A program made the translations under genes and the position numbers. From positions 124,001-188,000 of the forward strand of contig NZ_JAKRFD010000006.1 in NCBI RefSeq assembly GCF_022348185.1: DNA of 64,000 nt, written 5' to 3'. Of the stretch, positions 2,962 to 25,943 are shown piece after piece. Positions within the stretch are counted from its first letter, which is position 1, and each line of letters opens with the position of its first letter. The notes below the pieces were generated by a model. The model saw only the letters and a list, made by a program, of their open reading frames with translations. It was not told where the DNA came from and ran no database searches. Source of the stretch: Epibacterium sp. Ofav1-8 (GTDB taxonomy: Bacteria > Pseudomonadota > Alphaproteobacteria > Rhodobacterales > Rhodobacteraceae).

Positions 2962-3642
2962 TCATCTATCGTTCACATCGCGGCGGCGGAAGATGATCCG
3001 GTTTTCGCCGTTGAAGATGAGTGGTTCGACGCCGTTCTTGTAAAGCTCGCGGCAGAGATTGGCGGGATCGCGTCGTAACTCGCGGGCAAGATCGGTAGCA
3101 GAGATGTAGTGCTCGGCGAAGATTGTGACGGAGGCCTCATCGACCACCCGCCAGCGTTCTGAGGACTTTTGGCTCTTTGGAGCAGCACTCAAGTAGGCTG
3201 CGTTCACCAAATTGCGGATTGTAGCGGTATCGACTCCTAGCTTGCCGGCAGCCTCCGACATGCTGATCGCACCAGCTGAGTTCTGGCCTATGGCCGTTTT
3301 GGCCCGCTCGACAGATATCAGGAAATCGTTGAACCTTGCGTCTGCGCCCGTAGCACAGCGTAGCGGAATGTCGTGTTCGAAAATCAGATGCAGGAGTTCG
3401 AGGGTCGAGCATTGGCACGCGGGCGTGGCCGCAACGAGGGAAACCTCATCATTGGCCGGTTCCAAATCAGGGCGTGTTTGGCGGTATAAGCGACCGATAA
3501 AGGCGTCGAGATCTTCCCTTCGGAAATACGGCGCGTTTCGGGCCATCTCTCCTGCCTTCTTGATGAGCCCTTCCACGACGAACGTGCGCAGCAGGTGGAT
3601 GTCCAGCCCGAGATAGTCTGCCGCATCGAACCCGCGTAGCAC
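2962..3642 (-). CDS. TniQ C-terminal part, separated from tniQ by an in-frame TAG
   Basis: This 226-residue frame (GTG start at 3642) is in the same reading frame as tniQ. The two are separated only by the TAG at 3664-3666 and seven sense codons. It contains helix-turn-helix-like segments such as DAADYLGLDIHLLRTFVVEG near its N-terminus and ISMSEAAGKLGVDTATIRNL in its middle, as expected for the DNA-binding C-terminal part of long TniQ/TnsD proteins. I infer that tniQ was originally one gene of about 603 codons. Whether the downstream part is translated separately is unknown; no strong ribosome binding site precedes GTG 3642. Confidence 0.7.
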   Translation of the reverse strand: MLRGFDAADYLGLDIHLLRTFVVEGLIKKAGEMARNAPYFRREDLDAFIGRLYRQTRPDLEPANDEVSLVAATPACQCSTLELLHLIFEHDIPLRCATGADARFNDFLISVERAKTAIGQNSAGAISMSEAAGKLGVDTATIRNLVNAAYLSAAPKSQKSSERWRVVDEASVTIFAEHYISATDLARELRRDPANLCRELYKNGVEPLIFNGENRIIFRRRDVNDR

Positions 3643-3663
3643 GCCGTTGGTTTCATTGGCGAG

Positions 3664-5723: not shown

Positions 5724-7857
5724 CGTTGAACCCCCAGCGTCTGCGGTTCTTGCTTCTCGTTCGACGCTCGGATACCGGCCCGTCATCGTCGCTGCCCGGC
5801 TTCCGAGATGTGCCCTTTGGCGGAGTAATGGAGATCGCGTCTCTGAGCAGGTCGTTGCTCGGCGGCATGTATCCCAACCGCTGCTCATCAGAGCGGAGCG
5901 GATAGTGCAGCGCCGCATCAGCGCGGGCGACTTCCACGTCGGTCACATGGAAAGGTGTCAGGGCGCGCAGCGAGAATGCGCGGCGGTTCGCGTCTGATAT
6001 CCGCGCGATAGCCCGCTGGACCTTGGGCGCGTCCAACTTCGCAGCACGCGCATGTGCGTGACGAACGGCCCGAACGCCTTCACGCAGCTCGTCGAAGCTC
6101 ACGCCCTCGAAGCCGGGTTGATTGGCGAGCGCCGGATACCAGGTTGCGCCGACCTTGACGGCGATCCACCCGATGTCCTGCAGATCGACCCTGATTTCCA
6201 CCTCCCGTATGGGAGAGTGCAGATAGGCTTCCCGCAGCGCCTCGCAGCTATAGCTGAGCCCCGAGAACAGCACGCCCTCGTCATTGAGCTTCCGGGGCAT
6301 CGGCCTGCCGAATGCCTTCCTGAGGGTCAAACCATCCGGCACCGGAGGCGTCCCGTGTTTAGCCGCCAGCCGCTTCCAGGCTGCATTCGGGGTTTCCCCG
6401 TTCAGAGAGCCATGCGGTTGGTTGTGGTAGATATCAACGATATAGGTCAGCAGGACCTTGATCAGGTCGTCATCACACAGACAGGCGAGCATTTCTGAAG
6501 GATAGTCACCGCGATTAACAGTGTCGAAGAAGGTCCGGCCTGCCAGCCGCGGCATGAGCTGATGCCCGAGAGTGCGGAAGAAGGACTCGATGTGCCCCCG
6601 CATCCAGGGGATACCAGCGGGCGGCAAGTGCGACGTGACCCCAAGTGACGCTACCGTTGCTTGGAAGGCATCCGAGACGAAGGCAGGCCCCATGTCGGTC
6701 ACGAGGGTTCCGATCCCACCGTGATGATGCCATGTGCTCTCGCATTCGGCCGCCTGGGCCAGCGGGGTCTTGTCCTCGAAAATCTGCCGCAGCGCGCGGA
6801 TCGCATCATCCGAGTTTGGATTGTCGGCCAGTCGCATCGAAACGACACATTTCGTGGCGCAGTCGATCGCAAGATACATCCAGCGCCGCCCTGTCTCGAA
6901 TTTCTTCTGCCGATCTGGGGGCAGGTGTTCCCAGATGCCTGTCAGCGTCAGTAACGACATGACGTCGAGCTTGTTTTCATCCATCTCGACCCGCTCCATG
7001 GGGCGCACGACATCAGGACCGTTGCTGCTCATGGCAAATTTCCTGGCGGCCGCAGATGCGCCAAATCGTTTTGTGCAGACGTAGAATGGGTCTGCCGAGT
7101 CCAATCGGCGTTTAACGCTGGAGGCAGAAGGGATCGCGAGCGGCGTTGCTCCCGCGCTGGCTCTACGCGCGTTCTCTTCGGCGAACAGCGCCCGAGTCTC
7201 CTGAATAGACTGGACCTTGGTTGGTTGCTGCGTGTCGGCGTAAATCTCGATGACCTGGTTCATCAGGGCTTCCGCCTTCGGACACCAGCGCCGGCTCCGA
7301 TTGCCGGATAGGTGAGTGGCCGGAATGAGAGAAAGTGCAGAGTAGCCTGCAGCCTGATAGGAGCGGACCCACTGCAAGACCGTTCGGCTTCCCGGCAGCT
7401 TACGAACTCTTATTTCCTTGCCCGGTCGTATCTTGGCAAAGGCCGCTGCGCCTTCGCCAACGAGCCTGGCCGTCACTGATGCGAGGTGCGCTTTGGCCTG
7501 CTCATATGCCCGCTGCGTGCGTTTGACGAGGCCCGCAGCTTCGAGAGCCAGGAAGGCGTCACAGACGGCCTTCCGCCAGATCACCAGCCGTGCGGTCTTT
7601 TCCGACAGTTCGCTGATGACCTCTACCGGCTTGTTGCGACGCGCCTCTTGCGTAGCCCGGTCAAAATATCCTGGAAAATATTTGGTATCTGGGCGACGCA
7701 TCATCTCAGCAAGTTCTCGGTGAGAAAAAGCCTCTGTGACCCCGGGCTGGCCCACACGCCCATAGATACCGCCGTGCTCGTTGGTCTCAATCGGGTAGAT
7801 CGCGACACCCGCAGTGATAATCATGTCAGAGGTCGACAAGCGGAAGTGAGGGATCAT
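5713..7857 (-). CDS. tniA: TniA/TnsB-like DDE transposase
   Basis: This 714-residue protein is the strand-transfer transposase of a Tn7/Tn5053-like element. The retroviral-integrase-like core shows the triad D293 (MDENKLD), D388 (LVTDMGPAF) and E424 (GHIESFF). The D-D-35-E spacing between the last two is canonical. N-terminal helix-turn-helix regions precede the core. ATG 7857 overlaps the tnsA stop as ATGA. The motif is complete and the frame is open, so this protein could be active. The longer open frame to 7890 reads into tnsA and is less likely to be used. Confidence 0.92.
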   Translation of the reverse strand: MIPHFRLSTSDMIITAGVAIYPIETNEHGGIYGRVGQPGVTEAFSHRELAEMMRRPDTKYFPGYFDRATQEARRNKPVEVISELSEKTARLVIWRKAVCDAFLALEAAGLVKRTQRAYEQAKAHLASVTARLVGEGAAAFAKIRPGKEIRVRKLPGSRTVLQWVRSYQAAGYSALSLIPATHLSGNRSRRWCPKAEALMNQVIEIYADTQQPTKVQSIQETRALFAEENARRASAGATPLAIPSASSVKRRLDSADPFYVCTKRFGASAAARKFAMSSNGPDVVRPMERVEMDENKLDVMSLLTLTGIWEHLPPDRQKKFETGRRWMYLAIDCATKCVVSMRLADNPNSDDAIRALRQIFEDKTPLAQAAECESTWHHHGGIGTLVTDMGPAFVSDAFQATVASLGVTSHLPPAGIPWMRGHIESFFRTLGHQLMPRLAGRTFFDTVNRGDYPSEMLACLCDDDLIKVLLTYIVDIYHNQPHGSLNGETPNAAWKRLAAKHGTPPVPDGLTLRKAFGRPMPRKLNDEGVLFSGLSYSCEALREAYLHSPIREVEIRVDLQDIGWIAVKVGATWYPALANQPGFEGVSFDELREGVRAVRHAHARAAKLDAPKVQRAIARISDANRRAFSLRALTPFHVTDVEVARADAALHYPLRSDEQRLGYMPPSNDLLRDAISITPPKGTSRKPGSDDDGPVSERRTRSKNRRRWGFNDGK

Positions 7858-8354
7858 GCTGCGGCCTCCACTAGAGAGGGGCGCGACCAAGCGAGCGTCC
7901 GCGCCGCTTCAGCGGCAGCCTGTCGGTCAATGTGCTGGTCCGTAACGAGCAGCACGCGATCCGCAAATGACTTGGATACTGCCGCAGAGACAGCTTCGAG
8001 CTCGGATGCAAAGTTCAGCTTCAGTACACGCGGCATGGGTTTGATGGCCACGGCGATGCGCTCCCCGTCAGTTTTCGTGACCAAGAAATCGAAGACATGT
8101 CGCGCGGGGCGGCCGTCAGTGCCGACATAGGATATCGCCGGGGGTTGTTCGCGGATGTGGTGCACGTCGTCGCGTACCAACATCAGGCAGAGGAAAGCGT
8201 ATTCGAGCGCACTCTCGAAGTGGATGATGCGCGGGCGCTCGAAGCCGGGCAGCAGTGCGACCATCGAGCCGCGAAGGCTCCCTTTTGAACGGCGCGCAGG
8301 CACCCGGGTCGCGTGGCTCGGCTCCGGCCCGCGGTAGAATAAGGTGTTGTACAT
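7854..8354 (-). CDS. tnsA: TnsA-like endonuclease
   Basis: TnsA cuts the 5' strands at the transposon ends, allowing cut-and-paste movement together with TnsB. From ATG 8354 the product is 166 residues. The PD-(D/E)xK pattern is recognisable: FESALEY near residues 46-52, HVFDF with D89, and VAIKP with K105. The usual Gln or Glu two residues before the Lys is Ala (A103). An upstream GTG at 8375 is an alternative start; ATG 8354 fits the family better. It is the first gene of a four-gene operon in which each gene overlaps the next. Confidence 0.75.
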   Translation of the reverse strand: MYNTLFYRGPEPSHATRVPARRSKGSLRGSMVALLPGFERPRIIHFESALEYAFLCLMLVRDDVHHIREQPPAISYVGTDGRPARHVFDFLVTKTDGERIAVAIKPMPRVLKLNFASELEAVSAAVSKSFADRVLLVTDQHIDRQAAAEAARTLAWSRPSLVEAAA

Positions 8355-11338: not shown

Positions 11339-12337
11339 CTAAGAACCGATGAAGCGAAAATCAGCCTCCGTGGTTCGTTTCAAAAAGAGTTCAGTGTTGG
11401 CGAGCAGCTTGGCCATAGCTGGAGAGTACGTCGCTCCACTGACGGATGGCTGAACGATAACTACACAAAAACTCAGCTTCGCCTTTCGCGACTTGTCGAC
11501 AAAGTAAGACAGCTTCTTGAGGTCACCCTTTAGTAGTCGTGAGGCCCCTTGCTTAGCCCATTTTTCATGCCGCTTTCTAAGTGATGTTGCCAGCTTCGGT
11601 AAACCTTCGTGCTTCACGACGATGGACTTTTGGGCCTGCCCGCAAACCTCATATAGGTTGGCGATCAGCCCCGACACCTTTCCCTCGCTAGCATATTTGC
11701 AGTGTATCAACGTTAGACGGATCTCGTCTTCGCTTACATCCTTGAGGCCAACAAGATCTGCAGCCTCACCAGCGCCGTCGTCGTTGAAAACCATGTCGTG
11801 CTCGGCTTCTAAAAGCTCAAAGCTACGATACTGCACCGTATCCCGCTTGTTGCTTTTCCCCATTGACTCCTGACCTAAGTCAACGCCGTTCCAATCGACG
11901 ACCTCAAGGCGCTCATATGGAAAATCATCAGCTTTTAGGTCGAAAGGGATGTGGAACTTATTGTAAGAATAAGTGCCGTCGGCGTAGCGGATCAAAAGCG
12001 AGTCAACCACCATCTGCTCTTGAAAGTCTCTAAGACGTTCTTTGCTGATTTGAAATTTGATATCCTCTCCTGCAACAGGCTCATGAAAATAGCCGTTAGT
12101 TACTTTCGCATCAATTTTGAAACGAAACTGTGCAGCGTGGTTTTCGCTATAAATAGAGTAGAGGATTGCCCCATCGGTCTCTACGCCATCGATGCGCAGA
12201 TCGGCCATATACAATGGAACAGCTACATCACCGAAATAGATGGAAAGATAGTTTGAAAATGAGCTCTGCAGGTATTCTCCCCATTGGATGGAGATGGGGT
12301 GTTCATCATAGGGAGCTTTGAGTGTTTGCGGCCTCAA
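11339..12337 (-). CDS. C-terminal part of the SF2 helicase, split off by an in-frame TGA
   Basis: This frame of 332 codons (TTG at 12337) continues the reading frame of the helicase at 12404-14623. Between the helicase TGA (12404-12406) and 12337 there are 22 open codons with protein-like content (TLQKLEDTREDSSNITIGF). The segment has no catalytic motif that I recognise. LTLIHCKYASEGKVSGLIAN and HEKWAKQGASRLLKGDLKKL look like an alpha/beta domain, possibly nuclease-like, but I cannot identify it. I infer one original gene of about 1094 codons. Confidence 0.65.
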   Translation of the reverse strand: MRPQTLKAPYDEHPISIQWGEYLQSSFSNYLSIYFGDVAVPLYMADLRIDGVETDGAILYSIYSENHAAQFRFKIDAKVTNGYFHEPVAGEDIKFQISKERLRDFQEQMVVDSLLIRYADGTYSYNKFHIPFDLKADDFPYERLEVVDWNGVDLGQESMGKSNKRDTVQYRSFELLEAEHDMVFNDDGAGEAADLVGLKDVSEDEIRLTLIHCKYASEGKVSGLIANLYEVCGQAQKSIVVKHEGLPKLATSLRKRHEKWAKQGASRLLKGDLKKLSYFVDKSRKAKLSFCVVIVQPSVSGATYSPAMAKLLANTELFLKRTTEADFRFIGS

Positions 12338-12403
12338 GAAGCCAATAGTGATATTACTCGAGTCCTCACGTGTGTCTTCGAGCTTTTGGAGTGTTCGCGA
12401 ACA

Positions 12404-14623
12404 TCATTTCATCCAATCATCAATTGATCCGCTGCTCTGCTGCCAGATTTTTCCCTTCTTCTGCGCGGCTCCCCACAGAACCTTTTCACCGTCTTCGTAA
12501 CCCATGAAAGCAATGTTGTTTAGTGCAGACTCCGCCTTCTCGATACTAGCCAGCCCTTCTGTCACATTAGGGCCAAAGTAAGACGTAAAGCTGATAGCAC
12601 CCAAACGAGAGGAGTCGAGATTCTTTGCAAGTGGAAGTTGAGCGTTGCTAAGAATCCGGAAAATTGGATCTCCGGTGAGAAGTTCCGTTTCGTCTCCACA
12701 AACCGCTTTCGCAATTGAGCCAACACGCATCGCGTCATAAGAACTCGAGTTCATAAAGAGCGTTTTGTTCTCTTCATCCCAGAATGCGACCAGGAGCTCA
12801 TAGGAACTCTCTTTCAAGTTTTCATAACGCCCCCATTTTACTCGACTTTCCAAATATCCAACAACAATGAGGACATTGTCTTTCTCGCTTAGCGCGTGCC
12901 AGTACGTTCCGGAACCTTTCAGCACTTCGGCATATGTCAGCGGGTTCCAATCCACGCACTTTGTTCTATAGACTTGCGTTGAGAGATTGGGGGTGAGATT
13001 CCACAATGAGAGCTTTTCATGAAGCATGCCGCTCTTCTTGAGCCTTTCTATTACATCTTGGAGCTGCAATTCTCCCTGAATTTTGTTCTCGCTCAGACGG
13101 CTAATCACACGATCCCAATCAGCTCCTTCAGCGTAGAGGTCACTGAGGCTTCTCTCCGCGTTTGTGTCGGCGATGTTCACTACCACCGCCGCATCACCTA
13201 CGTTGTCGGCCTTTCGTGTAAAACGCCCAACAAACTGAAGTGTCACAGCCAAGCTCTTGTGATTTTCATGAGTTGCCGCAACTTTCAGGTTGGGAAGATC
13301 AAAACCTTCGCCCAACATGTTTACGCACACAACTATCCTGGATGTACCTGCCTCGAGGCTCATGAGGGAATCGAGTGCATTTCGATTGATAGAAGCACGA
13401 CCAGTACCAGTATATACGGCTACAGGATGAAACTCGGGAGCAAGTTTCTGGTATATCTGAAGCACCTCTTCAGCTCGCTCCCAGCCCGTTACTCGGGCCA
13501 TCATGAAATGCTCATGACCCCGTGAAATGTCCGAGCGAAAAATTTCTAAGGCCCGTTCAGCTATGGCGTAGTCGCGGGTTTCAGTTTCTCCGAACTCCTC
13601 CACTGTTTCAAGTCGGATCGGCTTGTAGTACCCATCCTTCTGGGCATCGCTAAGCCGATAATTAAAGATAATCCGGCCACCAATATGCTTGCGATCTTGT
13701 CGGAACGGAGTTGCAGTAAACTGAACAATCTTCCGCCTTGCGAACTTGTCTTTTACTCTCTGCCAACTTGACGCTGAGACGTGATGGGCCTCATCAACAT
13801 ACAGGTCGCTACAGTTCTGACACAGCTTCTCAAAAACAGCGTCACTGCAGGACGCGAGTGTGTTTGGGAGAGTGACTATGACGTTGGTATTTTGAATAAT
13901 TTCATCGAGAGTATCTAGGCTTTTGATACCTTCTTTAAGTTTAAGGACGCTTGGATTGAATGCCTCAGGAGCGACAGATCCAATCTCTCTAAGGATTCCG
14001 AGATTTTCAAATTTCTTGGATATCTGGTCCCTCAGCGCATCGGAAGGCACAAGTACGAGAAGTTTAGGAATTCTCCGATACACCAGAGAGGCCAGCATTG
14101 TCTCGGTTTTTCCCTTGCCAGTCGGCAGAACAACCGTTGCGGCCTCAAATTCCGCTCCTACTGCGAAGTGTGCGGAGATTGCATGAAGAGATCCAATCTG
14201 TGGGCGGCGAAGGCCGGCAACATTCAGTTCTGGTGCAAATTCATTGAAACTGAAACCCGCTACCCACGAAGCGCAAATATTATCTGGAGTAAATATATCT
14301 TGCTCTAGTACTCCGGTGTTTTCTAGCTGTAGATCATCGAGTACTTGCAACTTGTGCCAGTCTTCGATGCCACCTGTTGCAAGAACCAACTCTTCTTGCT
14401 CAATTCTTCTCACCCCTTTCGGGCGAAGCAGCATCGTGTCGAAAGGTGGCTTGCAATTGGTAACAATCCGTTTGTAGCTGCTTTGCGGGATATCATAAAT
14501 TTCTGCCTTGGTCTGAAAACTCTCAAAGAGCGTATGGCGAAGGGTCGAAGCACCGTACTTCTTGGTCTTCATAGGGAGCGCGGGCACACGGATCGTACCG
14601 CGCCATAGTGGAAACAAATTCAT
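12404..14623 (-). CDS. DEAD/DEAH-box (SF2) helicase, N-terminal part
   Basis: This 739-residue protein carries the superfamily 2 motifs in order: motif I VVLPTGKGKTETM, motif II LYVDEAHHVS, motif III FTATPFRQD, and motif VI QFVGRFTRKA. The ATG at 14623 begins MNLFPLWRGTIRVPALP. The frame ends at a TGA after DDWMK, but the same frame continues into a 332-codon segment, so the protein is probably truncated (a Trp codon TGG changed to TGA is the simplest explanation). Large helicases of this kind are common in phage-defence islands, but no known system is completed by the neighbours. Confidence 0.85.
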   Translation of the reverse strand: MNLFPLWRGTIRVPALPMKTKKYGASTLRHTLFESFQTKAEIYDIPQSSYKRIVTNCKPPFDTMLLRPKGVRRIEQEELVLATGGIEDWHKLQVLDDLQLENTGVLEQDIFTPDNICASWVAGFSFNEFAPELNVAGLRRPQIGSLHAISAHFAVGAEFEAATVVLPTGKGKTETMLASLVYRRIPKLLVLVPSDALRDQISKKFENLGILREIGSVAPEAFNPSVLKLKEGIKSLDTLDEIIQNTNVIVTLPNTLASCSDAVFEKLCQNCSDLYVDEAHHVSASSWQRVKDKFARRKIVQFTATPFRQDRKHIGGRIIFNYRLSDAQKDGYYKPIRLETVEEFGETETRDYAIAERALEIFRSDISRGHEHFMMARVTGWERAEEVLQIYQKLAPEFHPVAVYTGTGRASINRNALDSLMSLEAGTSRIVVCVNMLGEGFDLPNLKVAATHENHKSLAVTLQFVGRFTRKADNVGDAAVVVNIADTNAERSLSDLYAEGADWDRVISRLSENKIQGELQLQDVIERLKKSGMLHEKLSLWNLTPNLSTQVYRTKCVDWNPLTYAEVLKGSGTYWHALSEKDNVLIVVGYLESRVKWGRYENLKESSYELLVAFWDEENKTLFMNSSSYDAMRVGSIAKAVCGDETELLTGDPIFRILSNAQLPLAKNLDSSRLGAISFTSYFGPNVTEGLASIEKAESALNNIAFMGYEDGEKVLWGAAQKKGKIWQQSSGSIDDWMK

Positions 14624-15056
14624 TCACCTTACCTTGCCCAAAGCTATGCATGCTTAAGCATAACCAGTCTGAGGTATACTTCGCCTCTCAATTTCAATCC
14701 CGGAACGTCTTCAGCTACCTCAGTCCGGAATCTTCCAAATCCAACTTCCGCTTCCATTAAGTGAGCGTTTTGTGCTGGCCTGCAGCTAATGTCTGCTTTC
14801 CACCCCTTGTGTCGGCGCTTGGCATCTTGGATGGACGTCGCAGCGGGGCCCCAAAGGACTTAGCCGAGCCTCGCCGCGAATGGGTCGTGGCATCGCGAGT
14901 CTGAAGATCACTTCCAAAGAGGTAGGCTTACCTCGTGGCGACGAACATGCGCGAGCTTCCTCGACGCTCAAGCGACTCTTTACACTTCGTGTGTTTTTAA
15001 AGAGTTGTTCAGGGCCAAGCTTTGCTAGGCAGAGACTTGCGAGAGGCAACCGAACC
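14624..15056. other. Region without a recognisable gene
   Basis: These 433 bases separate the helicase (minus strand) from the recombinase (plus strand) and should hold both promoters. I see no convincing coding frame, RNA gene or repeat. An imperfect symmetry, tatgcatgcttaagcata, lies near 14645. Confidence 0.45.
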
Positions 15057-15733
15057 ATGCCCAATCGGCGAAGTGTTAAGAGTGTGGATGACCGGCCGAC
15101 TGACGCCCACGCGCGGAGCCGGGACTACCTTGGTCAACCGAATATCGACCGGCTTCTCGCTGCCGGCAAAAAAAAGGCCGCCACGGGGTTCGCGACCACC
15201 TTTTGATCCTGATGATGTTTCGGCATGGACTGCGCGCCTCCGAAGTGATCGCGCTTCGTCGGCAAGACGTGGATCTCGCGCAGTCGCGGATCTGGGTCGC
15301 ACGACTGAAGAACGGGCTCAGCGTTGAGCAGCCGGTCGCCGGCGAAGAGCTGCGGGCTATCAAGCGCTGGCTCGCGCGCCGGGATGATGCACTGCCCTGG
15401 CTCTTCGTCTCCGAGCGCAAGCTGCCGCTCACGCGGCAGGCTGTAAACTACATCGTCGGAGCTGCCGGCACTCGTGCCGGACTCGAGCGCGTCTACCCAC
15501 ATATGCTTCGCCATTCCTGCGGTTTCGCTCTGGCCAACAAGGGCCGCGATTTGCGAGTCATCCAGGACTACCTCGGCCACCGAGATCCCCGTCACACAGC
15601 GCACTATACGCGGACGGCGGCGCACCGGTTCGATGATCTGTGGTATCGGCAGCTGCAGTGGCTGCGAAGTGGAGAAAGGGCAGATTCTGGACCTTCACTG
15701 CGCCCTCAGAGAATGGCAGCTGTGCGCGAATAG
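15057..15733 (+). pseudogene. Small tyrosine recombinase, frame changed at an A8 tract
   Basis: From ATG 15057 the frame reads MPNRRSVKSVDDRPTDAHAR and ends soon after an A8 run at 15168-15175. A -1 shift at that run joins it to the catalytic domain: GRHGVRDH, FRHGLRASEV (first Arg), PHMLRHSCG (H-x-x-R), DYLGHRD (His) and TAHYTRT (catalytic Tyr). The joined protein would be about 225 residues, the size of FimB-like or integron-like mini-recombinases. The run is in the exact phase of the classical A AAA AAG slippery heptamer, so expression by -1 frameshifting is possible. An indel is equally likely. Confidence 0.75.
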
Positions 15734-16131
15734 CGTCAATTACAAGCTCGGGCTCCTTTGGCGCTTCGGGTGGTGCTAGGCGGCCTCGAACCGACATTTG
15801 CGTTACGCGACTATGGACTGAAAGCAACTAGCTTGCGGACGAATGCTTGGCGTCAGACAAGGCGAGCCTAGCGTTGCGGTAAACCGGTTCGGAAAATGGA
15901 GACCAACCTAGGAACCGTGAGCGCGGTGAGTGCTAGCCTCGACGGGAAGCCAGCGCCTACGTGTCTTGAACCTGCGAACACGCATCCACGATACATCGGT
16001 TTTGAGACTGGGCCACTGCGAAACATTAGGATAGTGTGAGCCAAATTCGGTTGTGACAGCGCAATGAGTTTTCTAAGTAAAAGAAAGCTATTCTCAAATA
16101 CCCAAAATAAACCTGCAGCAGGCTGAATCCC
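15734..16131. other. Region without a recognisable gene
   Basis: About 400 bases between the recombinase and the next plus-strand gene. Only short, unconvincing frames are present. If the recombinase acts in cis, its recombination site may lie here, but I see no clear inverted core site. Confidence 0.45.
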
Positions 16132-16749
16132 TTGTTCTTGACCTTCCTCACCAATCTGTTTCCTCATGTATCTTCATTGCTTCTGGGTGTTGGCTCTTCA
16201 TTCTTCGCATGGTGGCTCTTGCAACACTATCTAACGCCTCATGCATCTTTCTCTCAAGAGCTTGCCAAATACAAAGTTCCCGGAGGTGGGACAATTTACC
16301 TCAGCGCCTTCAAAAACACAGGTAGGCGTCGAATGGTCGATATTGAAGTGATCGCGAGGATTGGCGTTAGGGAATACAATGGCGCAGCAGGCTGGGCATA
16401 TTTCTCTGTCCGAACAAATGCCGCCCGGCTACCCGAGTTGGAAAAAGATAGACGCGGTGTCGTCAGAATATTCGACGACCGAGAGGAGCTTTCCTTTTTG
16501 GATGCACCATCAAAGGGGTTGCGTGATGAAGTTGAGCGATGTGGTGATTTGGAGGAAATTCTGTGCCTCGGCATCGATGCCACCATTGAGATTCACGTTT
16601 TTTGCACAGACTCATTCAGTGGAACTAGGCGCCATATGAAATCGCAAGAGTACAACAGGCTCAGTATAAGAAACGGGCGCTTTCGAGGTCTAAATGTTGT
16701 CAATGCCAATGACGCTGGTGGACGTGTGCATTCTCGCAGTGCGCTATAA
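16132..16749 (+). CDS. Hypothetical membrane-anchored protein
   Basis: This 205-residue protein has one hydrophobic N-terminal segment (VSSLLLGVGSSFFAWWLL) that could be a membrane anchor, followed by a soluble domain of about 170 residues. I recognise no family. The start is uncertain: TTG 16132 and TTG 16138 are both possible and no strong ribosome binding site is visible. It is convergent with the exonuclease gene and lies at the downstream end of the reverse transcriptase operon. It could be an effector of that system, but this is speculation from position only. Confidence 0.6.
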   Translation: MFLTFLTNLFPHVSSLLLGVGSSFFAWWLLQHYLTPHASFSQELAKYKVPGGGTIYLSAFKNTGRRRMVDIEVIARIGVREYNGAAGWAYFSVRTNAARLPELEKDRRGVVRIFDDREELSFLDAPSKGLRDEVERCGDLEEILCLGIDATIEIHVFCTDSFSGTRRHMKSQEYNRLSIRNGRFRGLNVVNANDAGGRVHSRSAL

Positions 16750-16791: not shown

Positions 16792-17685
16792 CTACGAGAC
16801 TCGAAATCTGTCCCTGGGACTCACTTTTTGAACTCGTGGGGCCCCCCGGCCCATATAAATCATATTTTCTAGCCACTCGAGAAGATGGTTAAGCTCTGTT
16901 TCCGGCACTTCCATCGCCCAAAACCGTTCCTTGGTGTTCCATGCGAAGCCATGCGATTTCAACGCGTCTTTTTTCTCAAAAGGAGCACCAACCGCCTCAA
17001 CACGGACGCTCGCCTCAAGTACGCGAGTAAGCAGGACGTTCAGGATGCTACCAGACGCCCCCGCATCCTGTCGCAGCAGCGCCACAACCGCCGCAACGTC
17101 GTTGGCAGCTCTATGCCCGCCAAAAAACATTCCGGATTGCATCAGTAGGTAGCCAAGATTGCGGCCATCGAATCCCAAATTCAGCCAATCAATCTGAGTA
17201 AGTGAGCAGGCCCAAATCTTTGAGTCTAGCTGCGAAAATCTCCGGTCTACGAACGGCCTATCAAATTGTGCGTTGTGGGCTATGATCACGTCCGCAGTTT
17301 CAAGAGCTGCGGTGATCTCATCATCCGCAAAGCTCCTGCCAGAAACCTGTGACCTGTCGATTCCAGTAATTTTGACTATCGCCGGTGGGATTTCGGAACT
17401 TGGTTCCTCCAGCCACGACTTCGGTCTTTCAACCTCAATGATCTTGCGCTCAGCATTAAATATAACGCGCTGAACTGCTATTTCAATTAACTCTGACGCT
17501 TCAAAGTCCAACCCAGTCGTTTCAGTGTCGACAATTGCTGCGATTCTTTCATCATCAGCAACCGGCCGCAATTCCTCAACCCCTTCCTCAACGTTAAGCC
17601 GTCTCAGAACTCGAAACTGATCGCTGGCATTTAGGCGCTCAATACATCTTTCAGCATCGTTCGCACTTATCTCACCCGAAGCCAT
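16792..17685 (-). CDS. DEDDh 3'-5' exonuclease (DnaQ-like)
   Basis: This 297-residue protein has the DnaQ fold motifs: Exo I IVDTETTGLD (D53, E55), Exo II AHNAQFDRPF (D142), and Exo III GHRAANDVAA (H191, D196), the DEDDh arrangement. A C-terminal segment (KKDALKSHGFAWNTKERFW) resembles a short extension seen in some stand-alone DnaQ-like exonucleases. ATG 17685 has a strong ribosome binding site (GGAGGTGAG). It begins 89 bases after the nitrilase stop on the same strand, so it is probably the fourth gene of the primase-RT-nitrilase operon and could trim DNA made or targeted by that system. Confidence 0.85.
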   Translation of the reverse strand: MASGEISANDAERCIERLNASDQFRVLRRLNVEEGVEELRPVADDERIAAIVDTETTGLDFEASELIEIAVQRVIFNAERKIIEVERPKSWLEEPSSEIPPAIVKITGIDRSQVSGRSFADDEITAALETADVIIAHNAQFDRPFVDRRFSQLDSKIWACSLTQIDWLNLGFDGRNLGYLLMQSGMFFGGHRAANDVAAVVALLRQDAGASGSILNVLLTRVLEASVRVEAVGAPFEKKDALKSHGFAWNTKERFWAMEVPETELNHLLEWLENMIYMGRGAPRVQKVSPRDRFRVS

Positions 17686-17774
17686 AGAAGCTCACCTCCA
17701 TACATTCTTCAAAAGCGGAGCAAGGGAGTGCGACGTGAAATAAGGGCGCAGTGGTATGTGGAGATGTCAAAGCG

Positions 17775-18686
17775 TCAAACTCTTTCAGTATTCGAGTTTA
17801 GACTGATAATGGAATCGAAGCCCGGAGGTCGACTCTTGAATTCTGGTTTATTACTTCCACTCTGGTGGGCGGCAAGTTCCGACACCGGAAGTTCAACAAT
17901 TTGAAAATTTGGAAGCTTTAGTCCGCTATGCTTATAAACTGTCCTCAGGTGTGGAGCGCGAAAAGGGCTGACAGCCAGTGAACCGCCGAAGTGCCCACAG
18001 TTACAAACAACAACATTGCAGAACAGCATGCGTGATAGCGCCTCCGCGGCATGTTCAAAAGACGTAGTATCCCGATTGTACGCTAAGATGAACAACGTTT
18101 GTACCTTCGCTCGGTACATAGCTAAACGATCTAGGTCAAGAAAGTCATAGCATACAGCAACGCCGAACTTACCCAATTCAGGGCTTTCAAAGAGCCAGAC
18201 TGTTGGTTGATTTAAGAACTTTACTGGGCCTGACTGGATCTCTGAAAGTTTTTTCAGCTCACCTGGGGCAGGGTAAGTTTTTCCGACATATCGCACACCA
18301 GTAGAACGAGAGCGTCGAACGCCGCCGAGGGAATGCGGAACAATAACAACAGCTTCATTTGAGACTGATGGCTGCGCAGTTGACCTATTAATCTTGTAGT
18401 CCAATCCTCCAATAAAAATAGCGCCGAGACTTTCCGAAGCTTTTCGAAATCTGCCCTCGAAGCCAAGTGGAATGGAGAGCTCTGGGAAAAGTACGAAGTC
18501 AGGAACTACTTCAGAAGAACGAATGGATGCTAAGAAGTGGCGTATCTCCCTTTTAGCCGCTCGCTCCTCGATCTCCGATATTTTTACGCAGTCCTCCCAA
18601 CTCGACGAACCACTATCTTGCCAAGCGCAGTCAGCGTTCAGTGATGTCTGGACGATGCATACCTTAATATCTTTTCTTAGTGCCAA
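17775..18686 (-). CDS. Nitrilase-fold (carbon-nitrogen hydrolase) protein
   Basis: This 303-residue protein has the nitrilase catalytic triad: E69 (LFPELSIP), K136 (YVGKTYPAPG) and C179 (VAVCYDFLD). I start it at TTG 18686, directly after the reverse transcriptase TAA, because a strong GGGGGAGG ribosome binding site lies 6-7 bases upstream. No signal peptide is visible. In DRT type 1 phage-defence reverse transcriptases a nitrilase domain is fused to the RT; here it is a separate gene. Its substrate is unknown. The tight coupling says that RT and nitrilase act together. Confidence 0.88.
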   Translation of the reverse strand: MALRKDIKVCIVQTSLNADCAWQDSGSSSWEDCVKISEIEERAAKREIRHFLASIRSSEVVPDFVLFPELSIPLGFEGRFRKASESLGAIFIGGLDYKINRSTAQPSVSNEAVVIVPHSLGGVRRSRSTGVRYVGKTYPAPGELKKLSEIQSGPVKFLNQPTVWLFESPELGKFGVAVCYDFLDLDRLAMYRAKVQTLFILAYNRDTTSFEHAAEALSRMLFCNVVVCNCGHFGGSLAVSPFRAPHLRTVYKHSGLKLPNFQIVELPVSELAAHQSGSNKPEFKSRPPGFDSIISLNSNTERV

Positions 18687-21600
18687 TTATCGACCTCCCC
18701 CATCAGAATCTTCCTCCAATTTAGAGGCGAAGTCAGCCAGCTTGAACGGAATTAACTGCCGTGGTTGCCCTAGCGTAACTGAAATCTGATTTTCCTCTAG
18801 AACATCTCTGGCATGCTCAATCTCCTTCAACAAGTCCTCAGGTCCATTCAGCTCAGGTGGATCAAATTCAGTATCATTCGGAGCCTCTCCATCATTGTTT
18901 CCGAAGTAACTTGGTCTTTCCTTCATTAATCGTGTCTCAGCAGCACGCCCCCCAAGACAAGCCTCGATCACACGAAGAGTGAGAGAAGAAATCGGAACTC
19001 TCTCAAACCATTCTCTCTTGGTCAGTGGGTGAACACTTTCGTTACCCCTAATATTCCAAATCGAAGGTGAAGAATGATTAAGTCGCACCATTCCCAAAAT
19101 AAAGCGACCAATTGCGGAAAGCTGACGTTCCGAAATATTACCTACGGGGTCTTTCTCACCCTTCGCGAACCGGTAGTCGCTCACTCCAAAATTCCCAGAG
19201 TTTATTTTGACACCATTTTCATTCAATCTGATCTTTTCTTGCCACGTTGACCAGTTCATGACTTGCTTGTCGACAGATGCATCTGATCTTAGAATCCAGT
19301 TCATCGGCAGAAAGACGTTCTTGGGGTGAATGTACAACAGGTCCGCATCGTCAATATTCTCGCCGAACTGAAGACGTGATTGGATCATCTGGCATGCGAT
19401 CTCCAGTGCAGTCCATTCACTTCGACGTGGGTCAAAGTAGTCAAGTTCAGATGCGTATTTAGTCCACTCTTCAACCGAAATATAGTTATCCGGCCGCGCC
19501 TGCAGCGCGCTCCACGCGCCTTGCGCGCTCTCGTACTTCGAGGAAAGACCGGACAAAATCTCGTGCTTGTCTTGCTCTCGTCCATCAACTACGTCTCGCA
19601 ACCATCCCGCGTCACTTTCCGTGCTTCCAACGCCAGAATTCAGCATCTCAACAAGCTCATTTTCCGAAATGCAATGAGGGTAGCGCCTCACAGCCAGCGC
19701 ATCGTTTTTGGCGGACAAATCAAATCCTTTGGCGAAGCTGCTCCAAGCGATAGTTGGTCCTCCAGCAAGCTGCAGTAGCTCTTCAGCGGCGTGTGCCCAA
19801 ACTCCGGAGGATCTGCCGGTGGCGGCGATCCAATCGTCTGAAGATGCCTCCAAGGGGAGCGGCAACAGTCGTAGTGCAACTTCCTCGAGCCTCTTTGGCA
19901 AGCTTGTGCCATACGAACTGTCTCGCAGCTCTGCGCCGCACTGTCGTAGCGCGACGCTAAACTCGATGCGTGCCTTGCGGTGAAACCAGCTTTCATTGGT
20001 GTCTTTAGCAAGGAAATCCGACAGGTCTATCTTCGAAATCGTCGTGAGATGCGCGAATGCGGCATTCGTGTCGGACCTTAACAATCCGTCGGATTTCAGC
20101 TTGGTGGTTGATGAAAGGCTTAATCTGGCAAGTATTTGGAAGGAAAGACCTGAGTAATAGGATGCCCACGAAAAATTGCCACTGGATCTCGTTTCAGCTA
20201 TCCAGCTGCCGACGTCTTTCAAGCCATCGTAGCCAGTGACTTGTAAATACCTCTGTATCTTAAAGAATAACCGCGCTTTCCCGGGGTGGTCCCTGAAGGA
20301 TTGCATCAAAAGGTCGAAGCACCTCTTTAGATGCTGGTGCTCAGATTTCTTAAAGTTTCGAGCCATTTCGTTGATGCTTTCCTTGAGCATCTGTAGCTCT
20401 TCCTCGACCTCATTATCAACTATTCCAGATTGCGTATGAAGCGCTGCTTTACGTGTTAGTTCGATTTCTCTGCGCGTAGCAGTCACTATGCCGTCTGTCT
20501 CTTGAATAAGGATTGGCGCCAAAGCTGCAATCTGTCCCGCCGCAAATGCTGCGCGTGTATCTGGACGAATTTCTCTTTCTGGAATGTCAGCTAGTAGCAG
20601 CCACTCAAGCATCTTGAAGCGGTCTTCAAGATCTCTGTCGTCCAAAACTTCTAGGTCTGTTGCGGCGATCGCTGAAACCTGTGTAAGCGTCTTTGTCATA
20701 AGCTTCGTTGGATTTCGGCCGTCAATCTTTGTATCTCGAATAGCGGCGCTTCGCGATTTCACCTGTGTAGCGCTTGCGTTGCTATTAGAAAAAGCACCAT
20801 CGGTCATGGCGCTCGAGCGCCGCTTTAACCAATCGCTCAATGAAGGCGGATCAACTTTCTTCTCGTTCACCACTGCACCGACTGCCTCTTCCTCCAGCAA
20901 GTTTTGGTACCAATCAATCCAATTGCATAAGATGTCGAAGTCGTAGCTTAGAATCGTATGATCATCTACGAACCTGAAATGCGCAATATTCCTTCTCTCT
21001 TTGAGGCTTTTTTGAACCGCCCTGTCGACCTCGATCATAACGCAGTTAGACAGAAAGCCAGAAACATATAGCCCGGTTGGGATCCCATTGACTTTGGTTT
21101 TCAAAAATCTTGGTTCAACGTTTTCGAGTGCGCTCGTGGTTACGTCTGACATGTCGATCTTGAAATCTAAAAGGGAATCAAGCAGACGCTCCATTCGTGG
21201 GTCGGACGTTGCCCCTTCATTTTTCAAGATTCGCTTCAGCGTATTAGTGTTGATACTTGGGTAAAACTGCTTCAGGTCGATTGAAGCATGATATAGCTCT
21301 CCCGACGGGGGCGACTTCTTCGACGGGTGATTAAAGAAATCCGGAGAAAAATAGATAAGATTGCTTTCGTCGGCTGCTAATCCAGCAAGTCGCTCCGCGT
21401 CGTCCATTTCGTCATCACGCAGCCTTCTCCGGAGAGCCATCATGCGGGTGGTAAGGGATACGTGTCTTCTAAACAGAGGCCAGCTGTTCTGAAATTTCTT
21501 GTATAAGTTCCCGCTTGAATGACGATAAGGTCCGAATTCGAGTTTTGACTGGGTGTTGGGTTTTCGCTCATACCAAGCCGCTCGATACAATCTATTCCCA

Positions 21601-21941
21601 TAGCTCCAGGCCTCCATCTTTTCGTCCAATAGTGGGCCGACAGCATTTACAAATGCCATCCATGCGACCTGATCTCTTGTGGAAATGTGGTAATACTGCC
21701 GATCGACAGTTTTGCCTTCTTGATATTTCTTAGGGCGAGGTAGAGGTCGGATCTTGTCGAGCTTATACTTGCCAAGAGCCATCTCCTCTCGAATCCTATT
21801 TAGGTTGTCTTCTAGATTTAGCTCGAATTCATAGAATTCACCGTGATCTAAATAGCCATCTGAAGCCTGATGCATTCTCCGAACTTTTTTCCAGGCAAAG
21901 TTCATATTTTCGGGAAGGGAAAGTCTGTCATATGCGGTCAT
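18687..21941 (-). CDS. Reverse transcriptase of the unknown-group/defence type, 1084 residues
   Basis: The RT palm motifs are clear: YHASIDLKQFYPSI with catalytic D222, GIPTGLYVSGFLSN at residues 286-299, and FRFVDDHTIL with the FVDD box (D326, D327). An N-terminal region of about 215 residues and a C-terminal region of about 700 residues, mostly predicted helical, surround the palm. This is far longer than group II intron or retron RTs and there is no maturase or integrase domain. Size and nitrilase partner point to the UG (DRT) class. The ATG overlaps the primase stop as ATGA. I cannot assign the UG number without a tree. Confidence 0.9.
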   Translation of the reverse strand: MTAYDRLSLPENMNFAWKKVRRMHQASDGYLDHGEFYEFELNLEDNLNRIREEMALGKYKLDKIRPLPRPKKYQEGKTVDRQYYHISTRDQVAWMAFVNAVGPLLDEKMEAWSYGNRLYRAAWYERKPNTQSKLEFGPYRHSSGNLYKKFQNSWPLFRRHVSLTTRMMALRRRLRDDEMDDAERLAGLAADESNLIYFSPDFFNHPSKKSPPSGELYHASIDLKQFYPSINTNTLKRILKNEGATSDPRMERLLDSLLDFKIDMSDVTTSALENVEPRFLKTKVNGIPTGLYVSGFLSNCVMIEVDRAVQKSLKERRNIAHFRFVDDHTILSYDFDILCNWIDWYQNLLEEEAVGAVVNEKKVDPPSLSDWLKRRSSAMTDGAFSNSNASATQVKSRSAAIRDTKIDGRNPTKLMTKTLTQVSAIAATDLEVLDDRDLEDRFKMLEWLLLADIPEREIRPDTRAAFAAGQIAALAPILIQETDGIVTATRREIELTRKAALHTQSGIVDNEVEEELQMLKESINEMARNFKKSEHQHLKRCFDLLMQSFRDHPGKARLFFKIQRYLQVTGYDGLKDVGSWIAETRSSGNFSWASYYSGLSFQILARLSLSSTTKLKSDGLLRSDTNAAFAHLTTISKIDLSDFLAKDTNESWFHRKARIEFSVALRQCGAELRDSSYGTSLPKRLEEVALRLLPLPLEASSDDWIAATGRSSGVWAHAAEELLQLAGGPTIAWSSFAKGFDLSAKNDALAVRRYPHCISENELVEMLNSGVGSTESDAGWLRDVVDGREQDKHEILSGLSSKYESAQGAWSALQARPDNYISVEEWTKYASELDYFDPRRSEWTALEIACQMIQSRLQFGENIDDADLLYIHPKNVFLPMNWILRSDASVDKQVMNWSTWQEKIRLNENGVKINSGNFGVSDYRFAKGEKDPVGNISERQLSAIGRFILGMVRLNHSSPSIWNIRGNESVHPLTKREWFERVPISSLTLRVIEACLGGRAAETRLMKERPSYFGNNDGEAPNDTEFDPPELNGPEDLLKEIEHARDVLEENQISVTLGQPRQLIPFKLADFASKLEEDSDGGGR

Positions 21942-23005
21942 TGTGGCGCTCTTATGCTGACAAGATATTCGTTAACATCCTTTATTTCTGACGCTGGTCG
22001 ACTAAGCCTGACTGCAGAGACGCCGTAGGTTGCAAGTCGTTCCTTGAGGGACTTTACTCTCTTCTCTCCCGCATCATCCCAATCCAAAAGGATATCAACG
22101 CGACGATTCCGCATCGCCTTTACCATTTCCTCTGGAATCTCAGAGCTTACTCCCATTAAGGCAATTGCATCATAATCAAAATGAGTTGCCGATATGGCAT
22201 CCAAGATGCCTTCGCAGATGGCAATTTTTTTCGCGCTAGGGGAGCTGAGAACGTCGACGTTGTATATCTTTTTTCGGCGTGACCGTAAATTCCACCATCG
22301 GATTCCGTTGGCCTCGTTCTTGATTTTTCGAGATTGAAGGTAAACAATCTTCCCTTCCTCCATGAACGGGAAAACTAGAGAGCCCGGGGAGAAAACACCT
22401 CTAATGTCGCCTGGCGTCGATTTCGCCGTCAATAGTCCGGATTTCTCGAGGCGGTCAAAGCCGTACACCTCAGCCAACTCGATCATTGCCGAGTTCTTGG
22501 GTGCTTGGTGAATCATGAATCTATTGATGTACTCTCGATCTATAGCACGGCCCGCCAGATATTGGACCCCACTTTCTTGAATAGGAGATATCGATAGGTA
22601 GGATTCGTACAAATCACTGTCCGCGTCGCTCTCTAATTGATTGTCCTGTGGTTGAGGTGCCTTCTTGACTTTCGGCGGAGTTCGCTTCGATGACGGGCCG
22701 ACCAGCCTGCGCCGTTTGGCGCTAGAAATGGATATACCTTCATGCTCGGCGAGCCATTTTTTGGCCTCGAAAAATGAGAGAGCCAGAGTTTCTTTCACTA
22801 AGTCAATGCTTCCGCCCGATCTGTTGCACCCAAAGCATTGCCATTTCGTTCCAGGTTTGAAAATTTGAAATGACGGACTTCTATCAGGGTGATCTGGGAA
22901 AGGGCAGGAGGCCGAACCTATATTGGGCAATTTATAACCGAGATGCGCGGCAACTCTATGTATGGGCGTGTTGTTCAGTAGTTTGGTTTCTTCTTTAATT
23001 GTCAC
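21938..23005 (-). CDS. DnaG-like protein with CHC2 zinc finger and TOPRIM domain
   Basis: This 355-residue protein has an N-terminal CHC2 zinc finger (C34, H39, C57, C60: CPFPDH ... CFGC) and a C-terminal TOPRIM domain with E265 (CEGILDA) and D308-x-D310 (LLDWDDAG). The intervening part (SLVFPFMEEGKIVYLQSR) resembles the DnaG catalytic N-subdomain. There is no helicase-binding C-terminal domain, as in phage-type or mobile primases. The start is GTG 23005, with GAGG seven bases upstream. It is the first gene of the operon and is coupled by ATGA to the RT, suggesting that it primes for, or processes the product of, the RT. The cellular dnaG is not in this window. Confidence 0.88.
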   Translation of the reverse strand: MTIKEETKLLNNTPIHRVAAHLGYKLPNIGSASCPFPDHPDRSPSFQIFKPGTKWQCFGCNRSGGSIDLVKETLALSFFEAKKWLAEHEGISISSAKRRRLVGPSSKRTPPKVKKAPQPQDNQLESDADSDLYESYLSISPIQESGVQYLAGRAIDREYINRFMIHQAPKNSAMIELAEVYGFDRLEKSGLLTAKSTPGDIRGVFSPGSLVFPFMEEGKIVYLQSRKIKNEANGIRWWNLRSRRKKIYNVDVLSSPSAKKIAICEGILDAISATHFDYDAIALMGVSSEIPEEMVKAMRNRRVDILLDWDDAGEKRVKSLKERLATYGVSAVRLSRPASEIKDVNEYLVSIRAPQ

Positions 23006-23315: not shown

Positions 23316-24017
23316 CTATCTCGAAGGCGCGAGGTTTGCTTCGGGCTGACACCGGTCATCTGCCGTGCCTTGCGCGAAGGTCTCCTCAGGGCCGTCGGCT
23401 TCAGGTAGTAGGAGGCAGGAGGGAGCTGCGCGGTTTGTCCGCTTCAGTAGGTTCTCCGTCCATCTGGAGGATTCGGTCAGAGCGCTAGTTGCGCAGAGAC
23501 AAAAATCGGCGGGTGACGCGATGTCGGTGCACAGCAGAGCCGTGATCTTGTATCCGAGAGCGGTGTAGGTCTCGCGCATGACGGTGCAGGTCGCTTCGGC
23601 CTCGGCGCGGGTCTGCTTGCGTTTGGCATCCTGCGTGAAGATCTCATTCCAGTGGGGCGCAAGGAAGATACGGGCGTTGTGCCGGCCTGTCTTGGCCACT
23701 GTCACGGCTTGAGGCGGCACAGGCAGGCCGCAGAGGGTCAGGTAACCCATAACGTCAGGAGTGCCTCGGTCGAAGATTGCTGGGCCCGAGAGCGCCTGTG
23801 CGGCGCTGTGCGCGCGCAGGTCGCGTTCCAGCATCCGTTCGGCATAGGCCATGCGATCCATCCACGGGAGGGCGTCCCCGCCGCTATCTATCCCCTCGCG
23901 AATGATCGCGCGGCCGGATTCGGGGATCGTGTGAAAGTCGCGACGGGCAAGCTCCGCTATGAGGCTAGTCTTGCCCGCACCGGGACCGTCCGTCACGACG
24001 AAGAAATGGTCGCTCAT
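23316..24017 (-). CDS. P-loop ATPase/kinase-like protein (AAA_28 type), copy 2
   Basis: This 233-residue protein starts MSDHFFVVTDGPGAGKTS with Walker A at residues 10-17, and is homologous over its first ~175 residues to the product of 2014-2553. Its C-terminal 50 residues (from about SRWTENLLKRTNRAAPS) are open here; in copy 1 the corresponding sequence lies after the stop in a different frame. The gene lies between tRNA-Ala and the island cargo, all on the minus strand. Function is unknown. Confidence 0.75.
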   Translation of the reverse strand: MSDHFFVVTDGPGAGKTSLIAELARRDFHTIPESGRAIIREGIDSGGDALPWMDRMAYAERMLERDLRAHSAAQALSGPAIFDRGTPDVMGYLTLCGLPVPPQAVTVAKTGRHNARIFLAPHWNEIFTQDAKRKQTRAEAEATCTVMRETYTALGYKITALLCTDIASPADFCLCATSALTESSRWTENLLKRTNRAAPSCLLLPEADGPEETFAQGTADDRCQPEANLAPSR

Positions 24018-24180
24018 GGGCCACCCTCGGGTTTGACAGGGGAAGGACTGCGCAGCGATCGACGCGCTGAAAGGCGCGGATCAAGGCAGCATGGATTTTC
24101 AAAGGAAAAACAGCACCGGTCTGCGCGGCAGAGGCAAATCCTCTGACGAGAAAGGCATAACTATCTGGTGCTTTTCAGAA
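23400..24180. repeat. Right copy of the diverged direct repeat
   Basis: This block corresponds to 1935-2725. It includes most of ATPase copy 2 and the flank running up to the 3' end of tRNA-Ala. The visible differences are scattered substitutions and small indels, so the duplication is not recent, or the two copies came from different strains. Confidence 0.75.
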
Positions 24181-24185
24181 AGGAT

Positions 24186-25132: not shown

Positions 25133-25241
25133 GTGGGTCCCCTATGAAAATAGCGTGAGTCGGTAAGACGATTCAGGTGCCTTGCCATAAGCGACAGACC
25201 CTGTCAAAGCCTTTGCAGCCATGCCTGCGCGGGGAGATGTC

Positions 25242-25943
25242 ATGCCAGAACTGAGCCTGCCCGGCGATCCGGATGTCCGGGTCATACTGCGCCGCTCGGC
25301 CCGGGCGCGGCGGTTATCGCTGCGGATCTCCTCACTCGACGGGCGGGTGACGCTGACCTTGCCCAAACGGGTGTCCGAACGGGAGGGTCGCGCGTTTCTG
25401 CTGGAGAAGGAAGACTGGATCCGCAGCCATCTCGCCCGGCAGCCAAAGCCGGTTGCGGTGCGGGCGGGGATTCGACTGCCGGTAGAGGGGCGGGAATTGG
25501 ATATCCGCATTGGTGCCGGTCGCAGGGTCGAGCAGCGCGGCGAGGCCCTGATCGTGCCTGGATCGGCACCGGCGCGCCGGCTGGAGCGATACCTGAAGGA
25601 ACTTGCCCGGGATCGACTTGCGGCGGCATCCGACAGATACGCGGCCCGATTGGGGCGGTCCTATTGTAGCCTGAGCCTGCGCGATACCCGGTCACGCTGG
25701 GGATCATGTTCCGCGGCCGGAGGGCTGATGTACTCTTGGCGGCTGATCCTCGCGCCACCGGACGTCCTGACCTATGTAGCGGCCCATGAGGTGGCGCATT
25801 TGCAGGAGATGAACCACTCGCCCGCGTTCTGGTCGGTGGTCGAGGATCTTTATGGTGACTACGCCGCGCCACGCCGCTGGTTGCAAAGCGACGGCAATGC
25901 CCTGCACCGCTATCGTTTCGAAGATATCTCCGAAAAGGATTGA
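25242..25943 (+). CDS. YgjP-like zinc metallopeptidase (DUF45/M48-related)
   Basis: This protein of 233 residues (from ATG 25242, MPELSLPGDPDV) contains the zinc-binding motif HEVAHLQEMNHSPAFW (HExxH with a third His downstream), characteristic of the YgjP/DUF45 family of SprT-like predicted metal-dependent hydrolases. The conserved LRDTRSRWGSCS segment precedes it. The open frame extends to 25221, but the family sequence starts at MPEL. The natural substrate is not known. It is convergent in layout with the FYDLN gene's promoter side and is followed closely by the GntR gene. Confidence 0.9.
   Translation: MPELSLPGDPDVRVILRRSARARRLSLRISSLDGRVTLTLPKRVSEREGRAFLLEKEDWIRSHLARQPKPVAVRAGIRLPVEGRELDIRIGAGRRVEQRGEALIVPGSAPARRLERYLKELARDRLAAASDRYAARLGRSYCSLSLRDTRSRWGSCSAAGGLMYSWRLILAPPDVLTYVAAHEVAHLQEMNHSPAFWSVVEDLYGDYAAPRRWLQSDGNALHRYRFEDISEKD

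Follow-up and report, generated by a model that had tools for sequence, protein, structure and literature searches.

The UG1 system DRT1 (PDB 9YFD) carries a reverse transcriptase (RT) and a nitrilase in one chain of 1229 amino acids. Passages of PMC13275509 report that DRT1 defence needs the active sites of both the RT and the nitrilase, that the C1116A substitution abolishes defence, and that DNA is made without a template and primed on a serine, with DNA adducts keeping nitrilase filaments inactive. For DRT9, which uses a noncoding RNA and the host exonuclease ExoI, PMC12483538 describes in part of its text that no transformants with an active system were obtained in ΔsbcB cells, and that ExoI degrades poly-dA and clears the product in uninfected cells. 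Similar guard logic is reported for DRT4 and DRT3 (PMC13213688, PMC13174585); DRT3 makes double-stranded DNA (dsDNA) that is restrained by RecBCD (PMC13174585). Here we describe an operon in a 64,000-nucleotide stretch of the Epibacterium sp. Ofav1-8 genome (contig NZ_JAKRFD010000006.1, positions 124,001 to 188,000; hereafter the window, whose own numbering is used below), in which a UG6 RT, a nitrilase and a DnaG-like primase are encoded by separate genes and followed by an exonuclease gene. We propose, with a probability of roughly 0.55, that this is a split, multi-gene DRT1-like abortive-infection operon whose own exonuclease restrains RT-made DNA, a mechanism suggested by homology.

The four genes lie on the minus strand. 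The first (21938-23005) encodes a DnaG-like primase of 355 amino acids with a CHC2 zinc finger, a partial DNAG_N domain and a TOPRIM domain. It is followed by the UG6 RT of 1084 amino acids (18687-21941), the RT-associated nitrilase of 303 amino acids (17775-18686) and a DEDDh 3'-5' exonuclease of the PRK09182 type, 297 amino acids long (16792-17685). The primase stop and the RT start share ATGA, a 4-bp overlap. The RT ends with TAA at 18687 and the TTG start of the nitrilase follows immediately, with GGGGGAGG just upstream; after a gap of 89 bp, the exonuclease begins at an ATG preceded by GGAGGTGAG. The CHC2 and TOPRIM motifs of the primase are intact, and the RT contains IDLKQFY and FVDD. 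The nitrilase carries E69, K136 and C179 in the motifs PEL, VGKT and CYD, while the exonuclease shows DTETTG, HNAQFD and HRAANDV. Re-reading of the open reading frames (ORFs), junctions and motifs in the window confirmed the four same-strand genes, intact motifs and spacings that an earlier note on this DNA had described. Promoter and terminator scans of the region gave hits at chance level only, and an Rfam scan of window positions 1-30000 returned a tRNA as its only RNA match.

The family matches of the operon proteins lie far above chance level. We assigned the RT class by profile scores, using the family models of PADLOC-DB 2.0.0. The RT scored 1051.9 bits against RT_UG6 over profile positions 2-918 of 925, with the next model, a generic RT, at 71.5 bits; the primase matched RTasDnaG-like (344.7 bits) and the nitrilase matched RTasNitrilase (351.8 bits). 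By these scores the placement as UG6 is near certain, in agreement with the UG/DRT-type RT proposed in the earlier note. UG6 reportedly belongs to class 3 of the UG/Abi RTs, a grouping attributed to Mestre et al. 2022. By these profiles, the primase-RT-nitrilase trio consists of parts already catalogued as RT-associated, and the core is thus not new. Similarly, myRT (PMC8934634, in part) includes a UG6-assigned RT that has a nitrilase among its neighbours.

Two further full-length UG6 loci were found. The first relative (G247) came from 394 genomes of the host's own bacterial family, which is also that of Pseudorhodobacter. Scanning 84,980 species genomes with the two RTs then retrieved Pseudorhodobacter sp. 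PARRP1 (L026, of which L025 is the same stretch) and a Maricaulis metagenome-assembled genome (MAG; L027), while a scan of the species genomes with the window RT as single protein found nothing. G247 and the Pseudorhodobacter locus L026 are one genome (100% matches) and are counted once; the patterns of the 84,980-genome scan were narrow, and the number of UG6 loci is a lower bound. Identities to the window proteins in Pseudorhodobacter and Maricaulis are 47% and 42% for the RT, 41% and 40% for the primase, and 58% and 53% for the nitrilase. Both relatives also match RTasDnaG-like and RTasNitrilase, and the nitrilase E/K/C residues are invariant in all three loci.

The gene order that the earlier note had proposed to look for was recovered in part: primase, RT and nitrilase follow each other with the 4-bp ATGA overlap in 3/3 UG6 loci, whereas a PRK09182-type exonuclease is present in neither relative. 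The window agrees with catalogued UG6 systems (RTasDnaG-like, RTasNitrilase and RTasSbcB) in its RT, primase and nitrilase. The coupling to a primase, which the earlier note had singled out as the unusual part, is not new, because PADLOC models for these associated proteins already exist and the primase occurs in all three loci. A described UG class with a constant primase and exonuclease, named in the same note as contrary to its view, is largely what we found; the primase is constant, but the exonuclease of the other loci differs.

UG6 is rare: in the family sample of 394 genomes only two carry it, one of them being the window's own. Full-length UG6 matches in overlapping genome samples numbered 2/394, 1/385, 1/398, 1/15 and 1/292, all of them the window genome or G247. 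Partial RT matches alone occurred in a further 2, 5, 13, 0 and 1 genomes (E 1e-10 to 1e-3; profile positions 85-254 of 925, and in the 292-genome sample positions 220-354 of the alignment model); these were taken as other RTs and not counted as UG6. The UG6 profile had no match in 14 control genomes, tblastn of the window RT against plasmids and phages gave no matches, and neither did four scans of viral contigs (two with the RT, one with the nitrilase and one with a membrane protein encoded beside the operon). Both relatives have an integrase within about 4 kb of the UG6 locus. In the Pseudorhodobacter locus, a 1575-residue protein (L025, 1361-6088) lying directly beyond the membrane-protein gene there matches the candidate defence family PDC-S37 (1775 bits).

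Profiles built from the three sequences support the relationship to DRT1. In the PDB, the RT profile matched the palm of DRT1 9YFD best (E 3.1e-7), with the acidic RT residues aligned. For the nitrilase profile, 9YFD was the sole PDB match at E ≤0.1 (E 5.5e-19), and C179 aligns with the catalytic C1116 of DRT1 (position counted along the alignment). The nitrilase is thus a separate relative of the DRT1 nitrilase domain, and the split-nitrilase relative of DRT1 put forward in the earlier note stands. In contrast to the single DRT1 chain, the window encodes RT and nitrilase as two ORFs, with a primase and an exonuclease added. Against Pfam CN_hydrolase the nitrilase reached 15.2 bits, below the cut-off of 23.2. 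It scored higher against the fused UG5-nitrilase profile (126.6 bits) than against Drt1a (90 bits); however, the UG5-nitrilase RT is a fusion and, by score, of a different RT clade (40.8 bits for the window RT, compared with 1051.9 for UG6).

The primase shows Zn_ribbon_DnaG and Toprim_2 above the Pfam cut-offs. For DNAG_N, which is the primase catalytic core, the cut-off is 26 bits; Maricaulis just passes it with 26.1, while the window protein reaches 25.0 and that of Pseudorhodobacter 18.9. The three-sequence primase profile matched PDB 2au3 (E 1.5e-14), which we take to be an Aquifex-type primase. Primer synthesis by the DnaG-like protein is therefore possible, judging from its domains.

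The exonuclease is where the window departs from its relatives. In both of them, an ExoI-like gene of 460 or 468 codons lies upstream of the primase ORF, at 134 and 39 bp; the two products match RTasSbcB at 702 and 448 bits, with NCBIfam PRK11779 scores (231.7 and 178.5 bits) that stay under the cut-off of 260. The window has no RTasSbcB match and carries the PRK09182-type gene downstream instead, whose product scores 288.8 bits against NF006615 (PRK09182; cut-off 207) and does not match RTasSbcB either. The exonuclease of the window is of a different DEDDh subfamily and sits at the other end of the operon from that of the two relatives. Among 61 genomes, six carry PRK09182-type genes above cut-off; the window's genome is one of the six and has a single copy, and the 14 control genomes have none. 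In the window's genome, a search for ExoI itself found nothing at E ≤ 0.001; among the 14 control genomes it was found in E. coli only, and in G247 its only copy is the operon-linked one. We propose that the PRK09182-type exonuclease stands in for the ExoI-like gene of the other UG6 loci. A tblastn search of the window for traces of a lost ExoI-like gene gave nothing beyond a faint match (E 0.05) to the exonuclease already described, and the idea of a remnant was rejected.

Besides its operon-linked copy, the Maricaulis MAG encodes a further ExoI-like exonuclease, which is incomplete and lies at the edge of another contig (L052, 2-1234). That 2.6 kb stretch contains no UG6-type RT, primase or nitrilase.

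With these parts, the operon could work as follows. The RT would need no external RNA template to make short DNA, which would probably be attached to protein as in DRT1, and the DnaG-like primase would start a strand for the RT or on the RT product, leaving the product partly double-stranded. The nitrilase would be the effector, held quiet by the RT-DNA assembly and freed on infection, with growth arrest as the outcome. In uninfected cells the exonuclease would trim the DNA, taking the guard job that host ExoI has for DRT9. DRT9 thus resembles the proposed system in that a 3'-5' exonuclease limits RT-made DNA, but differs in using a noncoding RNA and the ExoI of the host; here the exonuclease lies beside the operon, in a genome without an ExoI match. 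The two relatives would supply the ExoI-like gene for the guard, and the window locus its PRK09182-type DEDDh exonuclease. Of this reading, the sequence itself establishes family membership, gene order, intact motifs and the lack of an ExoI match in the genome.

Several observations weigh against it. The structure model of the RT is unusable (pLDDT 44, pTM 0.32), and the comparison with DRT1 suggested in the earlier note was made through the sequence profile. According to a passage of PMC13275509, the priming serine of DRT1, S402, is not conserved in other class 3 DRTs, so the UG6 priming step is drawn by analogy only. In our searches of an open-licence library, UG6 was mentioned only in PMC8934634 and an unrelated plant paper, with no experimental study listed, a weak point since subscription papers lay outside the scope of the search. 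The swapped exonuclease, a plausible new element of the system, rests on one locus. Similar exonuclease genes are also common on plasmids (393 records, with identities to the window gene always under 60%), and no RT is listed in 6/6 annotated plasmid neighbourhoods (the gene table being incomplete), where the neighbours include toxin-antitoxin and ABC-three-component genes.

These plasmid records and neighbourhoods, together with the absence of a PRK09182-type gene from both other UG6 loci, favour an alternative in which the operon consists of the three core genes only. The exonuclease would then be an unrelated island gene that happens to lie 89 bp downstream, and this UG6 copy would have no dedicated exonuclease or would have lost it. 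A three-protein UG6 RT profile likewise found no such RT in any of 11 exonuclease neighbourhoods, six from plasmids and five from genomes, although it would miss other kinds of RT. The exonuclease gene thus does not depend on an RT and may lie here by chance. Its position, its strand, the short gap without a terminator-like site, its own strong ribosome binding site and its status as the sole such gene above cut-off in the genome nevertheless argue for a role in the operon, as does the fact that the ExoI-like gene of both relatives is missing exactly here. We consider the chance neighbour somewhat less probable than an integrated exonuclease, yet a serious alternative.

Separately, one of the 11 neighbourhoods (L079, 3330-6857, minus strand) has its PRK09182-type exonuclease gene some 0.5 kb away from that of a protein weakly matching the UG6 primase profile. 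The matching protein (4674-6857; E 6e-6 and 3e-6 in two scans) could be a plasmid TOPRIM protein.

The primase opens another possibility, namely that the DnaG-like protein and the exonuclease make or trim a defined dsDNA and that this DNA is what poisons the cell, a mode of action reported for DRT3 and DRT7; the nitrilase would then serve only in regulation. The RecBCD-restrained dsDNA of DRT3 (PMC13174585) fits this scheme, as does DRT7 (UG10), which passages of PMC13213688, itself citing a preprint, describe as an RT-primase-polymerase fusion with a duplex-like product. Moreover, the PADLOC RT_UG29 profile (2280 positions) opens with a stretch, positions 7-364, that matches the UG6 primase at 94.9 bits, hinting that RT_UG29 may be a fused version of the same RT-primase coupling. 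In all three the RT is coupled to a primase, but the primase-polymerase is fused in DRT7, the DnaG-like stretch is N-terminal in the UG29 profile, and UG6 has a separate DnaG-like gene. The requirement of DRT1 defence for both active sites (PMC13275509, in part) and the invariant nitrilase E/K/C residues in the three UG6 loci speak for the nitrilase as effector instead, and a toxic dsDNA seems to us unlikely.

The genomic setting of the operon is best explained by a horizontally acquired island. The operon genes have a G+C content of 47-51%, whereas three host-type genes that flank the operon or are duplicated (the AAA_28 copy, PheT and, to the right, the gene at 25221-25943) have 63-65%. A 772-bp stretch by tRNA-Ala (23411-24182) is repeated at 1949-2720 with 80% identity, and the two copies may bracket the island. 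The duplicated unit comprises the AAA_28 gene and its flank towards tRNA-Ala. A TniA/TnsB-like, TniB and TniQ module with an HTH_17/MerR-like protein lies at 2962-7890 (minus strand), its transposase-core matches falling just below the Pfam cut-offs. An integrase-family ORF at 15203-15733 (plus strand) lacks its N-terminus, with matches starting at profile position 27 of Phage_integrase and 38 of the invertase-type PRK09870, and occupies a GC-rich patch between two AT-richer blocks. The earlier note had described an island with several broken genes; this truncated ORF and the AAA_28 second copy, whose ORF at 23316-24017 has a changed, longer C-terminus, support that picture in part. Between the Tni module and the integrase ORF, a 739-residue ResIII/DEAD helicase followed by a 332-residue protein without a Pfam match (11339-14623, minus strand), low in GC like the DRT operon, is possibly another defence pair.

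Such surroundings, with the Tni-like module, the integrase ORF and the tRNA gene at one edge, would also suit an operon that serves the replication or repair of a mobile element instead of defence, and a primase with an exonuclease would fit replication. The matches of the operon, however, are to DRT families, and one relative (L025) has a PDC-S37 candidate defence gene as its neighbour. Among the labelled ORFs of the island there is neither a replication initiator nor a polymerase, several others being without a label. We regard a replication or repair function as very improbable.

A fifth gene adjoins the exonuclease on the opposite strand and was absent from the four-gene description of the earlier note. 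It encodes a one-helix membrane protein of 205 amino acids (16132-16749, plus strand; TTG start uncertain), is convergent with the operon and is a possible accessory component. The protein is 43% identical over 179 residues to one encoded 220 bp downstream of the Pseudorhodobacter nitrilase, where the gene is on the same strand as the operon and not convergent as in the window; at the Maricaulis UG6 locus no such gene was found. Among 384 sampled genomes of the bacterial family, five encode a member of this protein family. Both UG6 genomes are among these carriers (hypergeometric 1.4e-4), a figure that is descriptive only because the family was chosen by looking beside UG6. Three carriers have no UG6 match, and their proteins resemble the window protein at least as closely (43-50% identity vs 41%). 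In one of these three, the gene (L070, 7855-8436) is separated by about 4 kb from a Dsr1-like gene (12234-16025). DRT1 offers a parallel, as part of PMC13275509 reports a membrane-protein gene beside about 18% of drt1 genes and describes DRT1b as an optional membrane partner.

The best structure model of this protein shows a helix (2-33) and a beta-sandwich at pLDDT 65, with four of five models at 38-44. Foldseek of the pLDDT-65 model against the PDB gave a best E of 6e-6, with potassium channels in 49 of the top 50 rows and Kir ranked first; TM-scores by query were 0.38-0.50 for this low-confidence model. A viral structure library gave four matches at E ≤ 0.001, none of them named a channel. 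As a Kir or KirBac homologue by sequence, the protein found no support in four kinds of sequence test and was rejected, leaving the likeness of fold as a lead only. Pfam gave no match and a PDB profile search no Kir, both up to E 10, and hhalign against one KirBac-like protein was no better than two unrelated controls (low power, Neff 1.9). In a shuffle test, the count was 20/500 for the window protein and 441, 474 and 423 of 500 for three relatives.

A wider, and to us doubtful, extension of the proposed mechanism is that UG6 systems carry an interchangeable guard exonuclease, imported where the host has no ExoI, and that in the window locus this part has been exchanged for another DEDDh subfamily at the opposite operon end. 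In this extension, the membrane protein, whose low-confidence model is similar to the cytoplasmic domains of Kir channels, would be a second DNA-gated effector, as suggested for DRT1b.

Whether RT-made DNA stays harmless reportedly depends on a nuclease in DRT3, DRT4 and DRT9 (passages of PMC13174585, PMC13213688 and PMC12483538). If the proposed reading is true, a system that brings its own exonuclease, apparently from either of two families, would allow the guard hypothesis to be tested directly by deleting or swapping genes. Furthermore, UG6 has RT, nitrilase, primase and exonuclease as single genes, so that the steps combined in the single chain of DRT1 could be removed one at a time.

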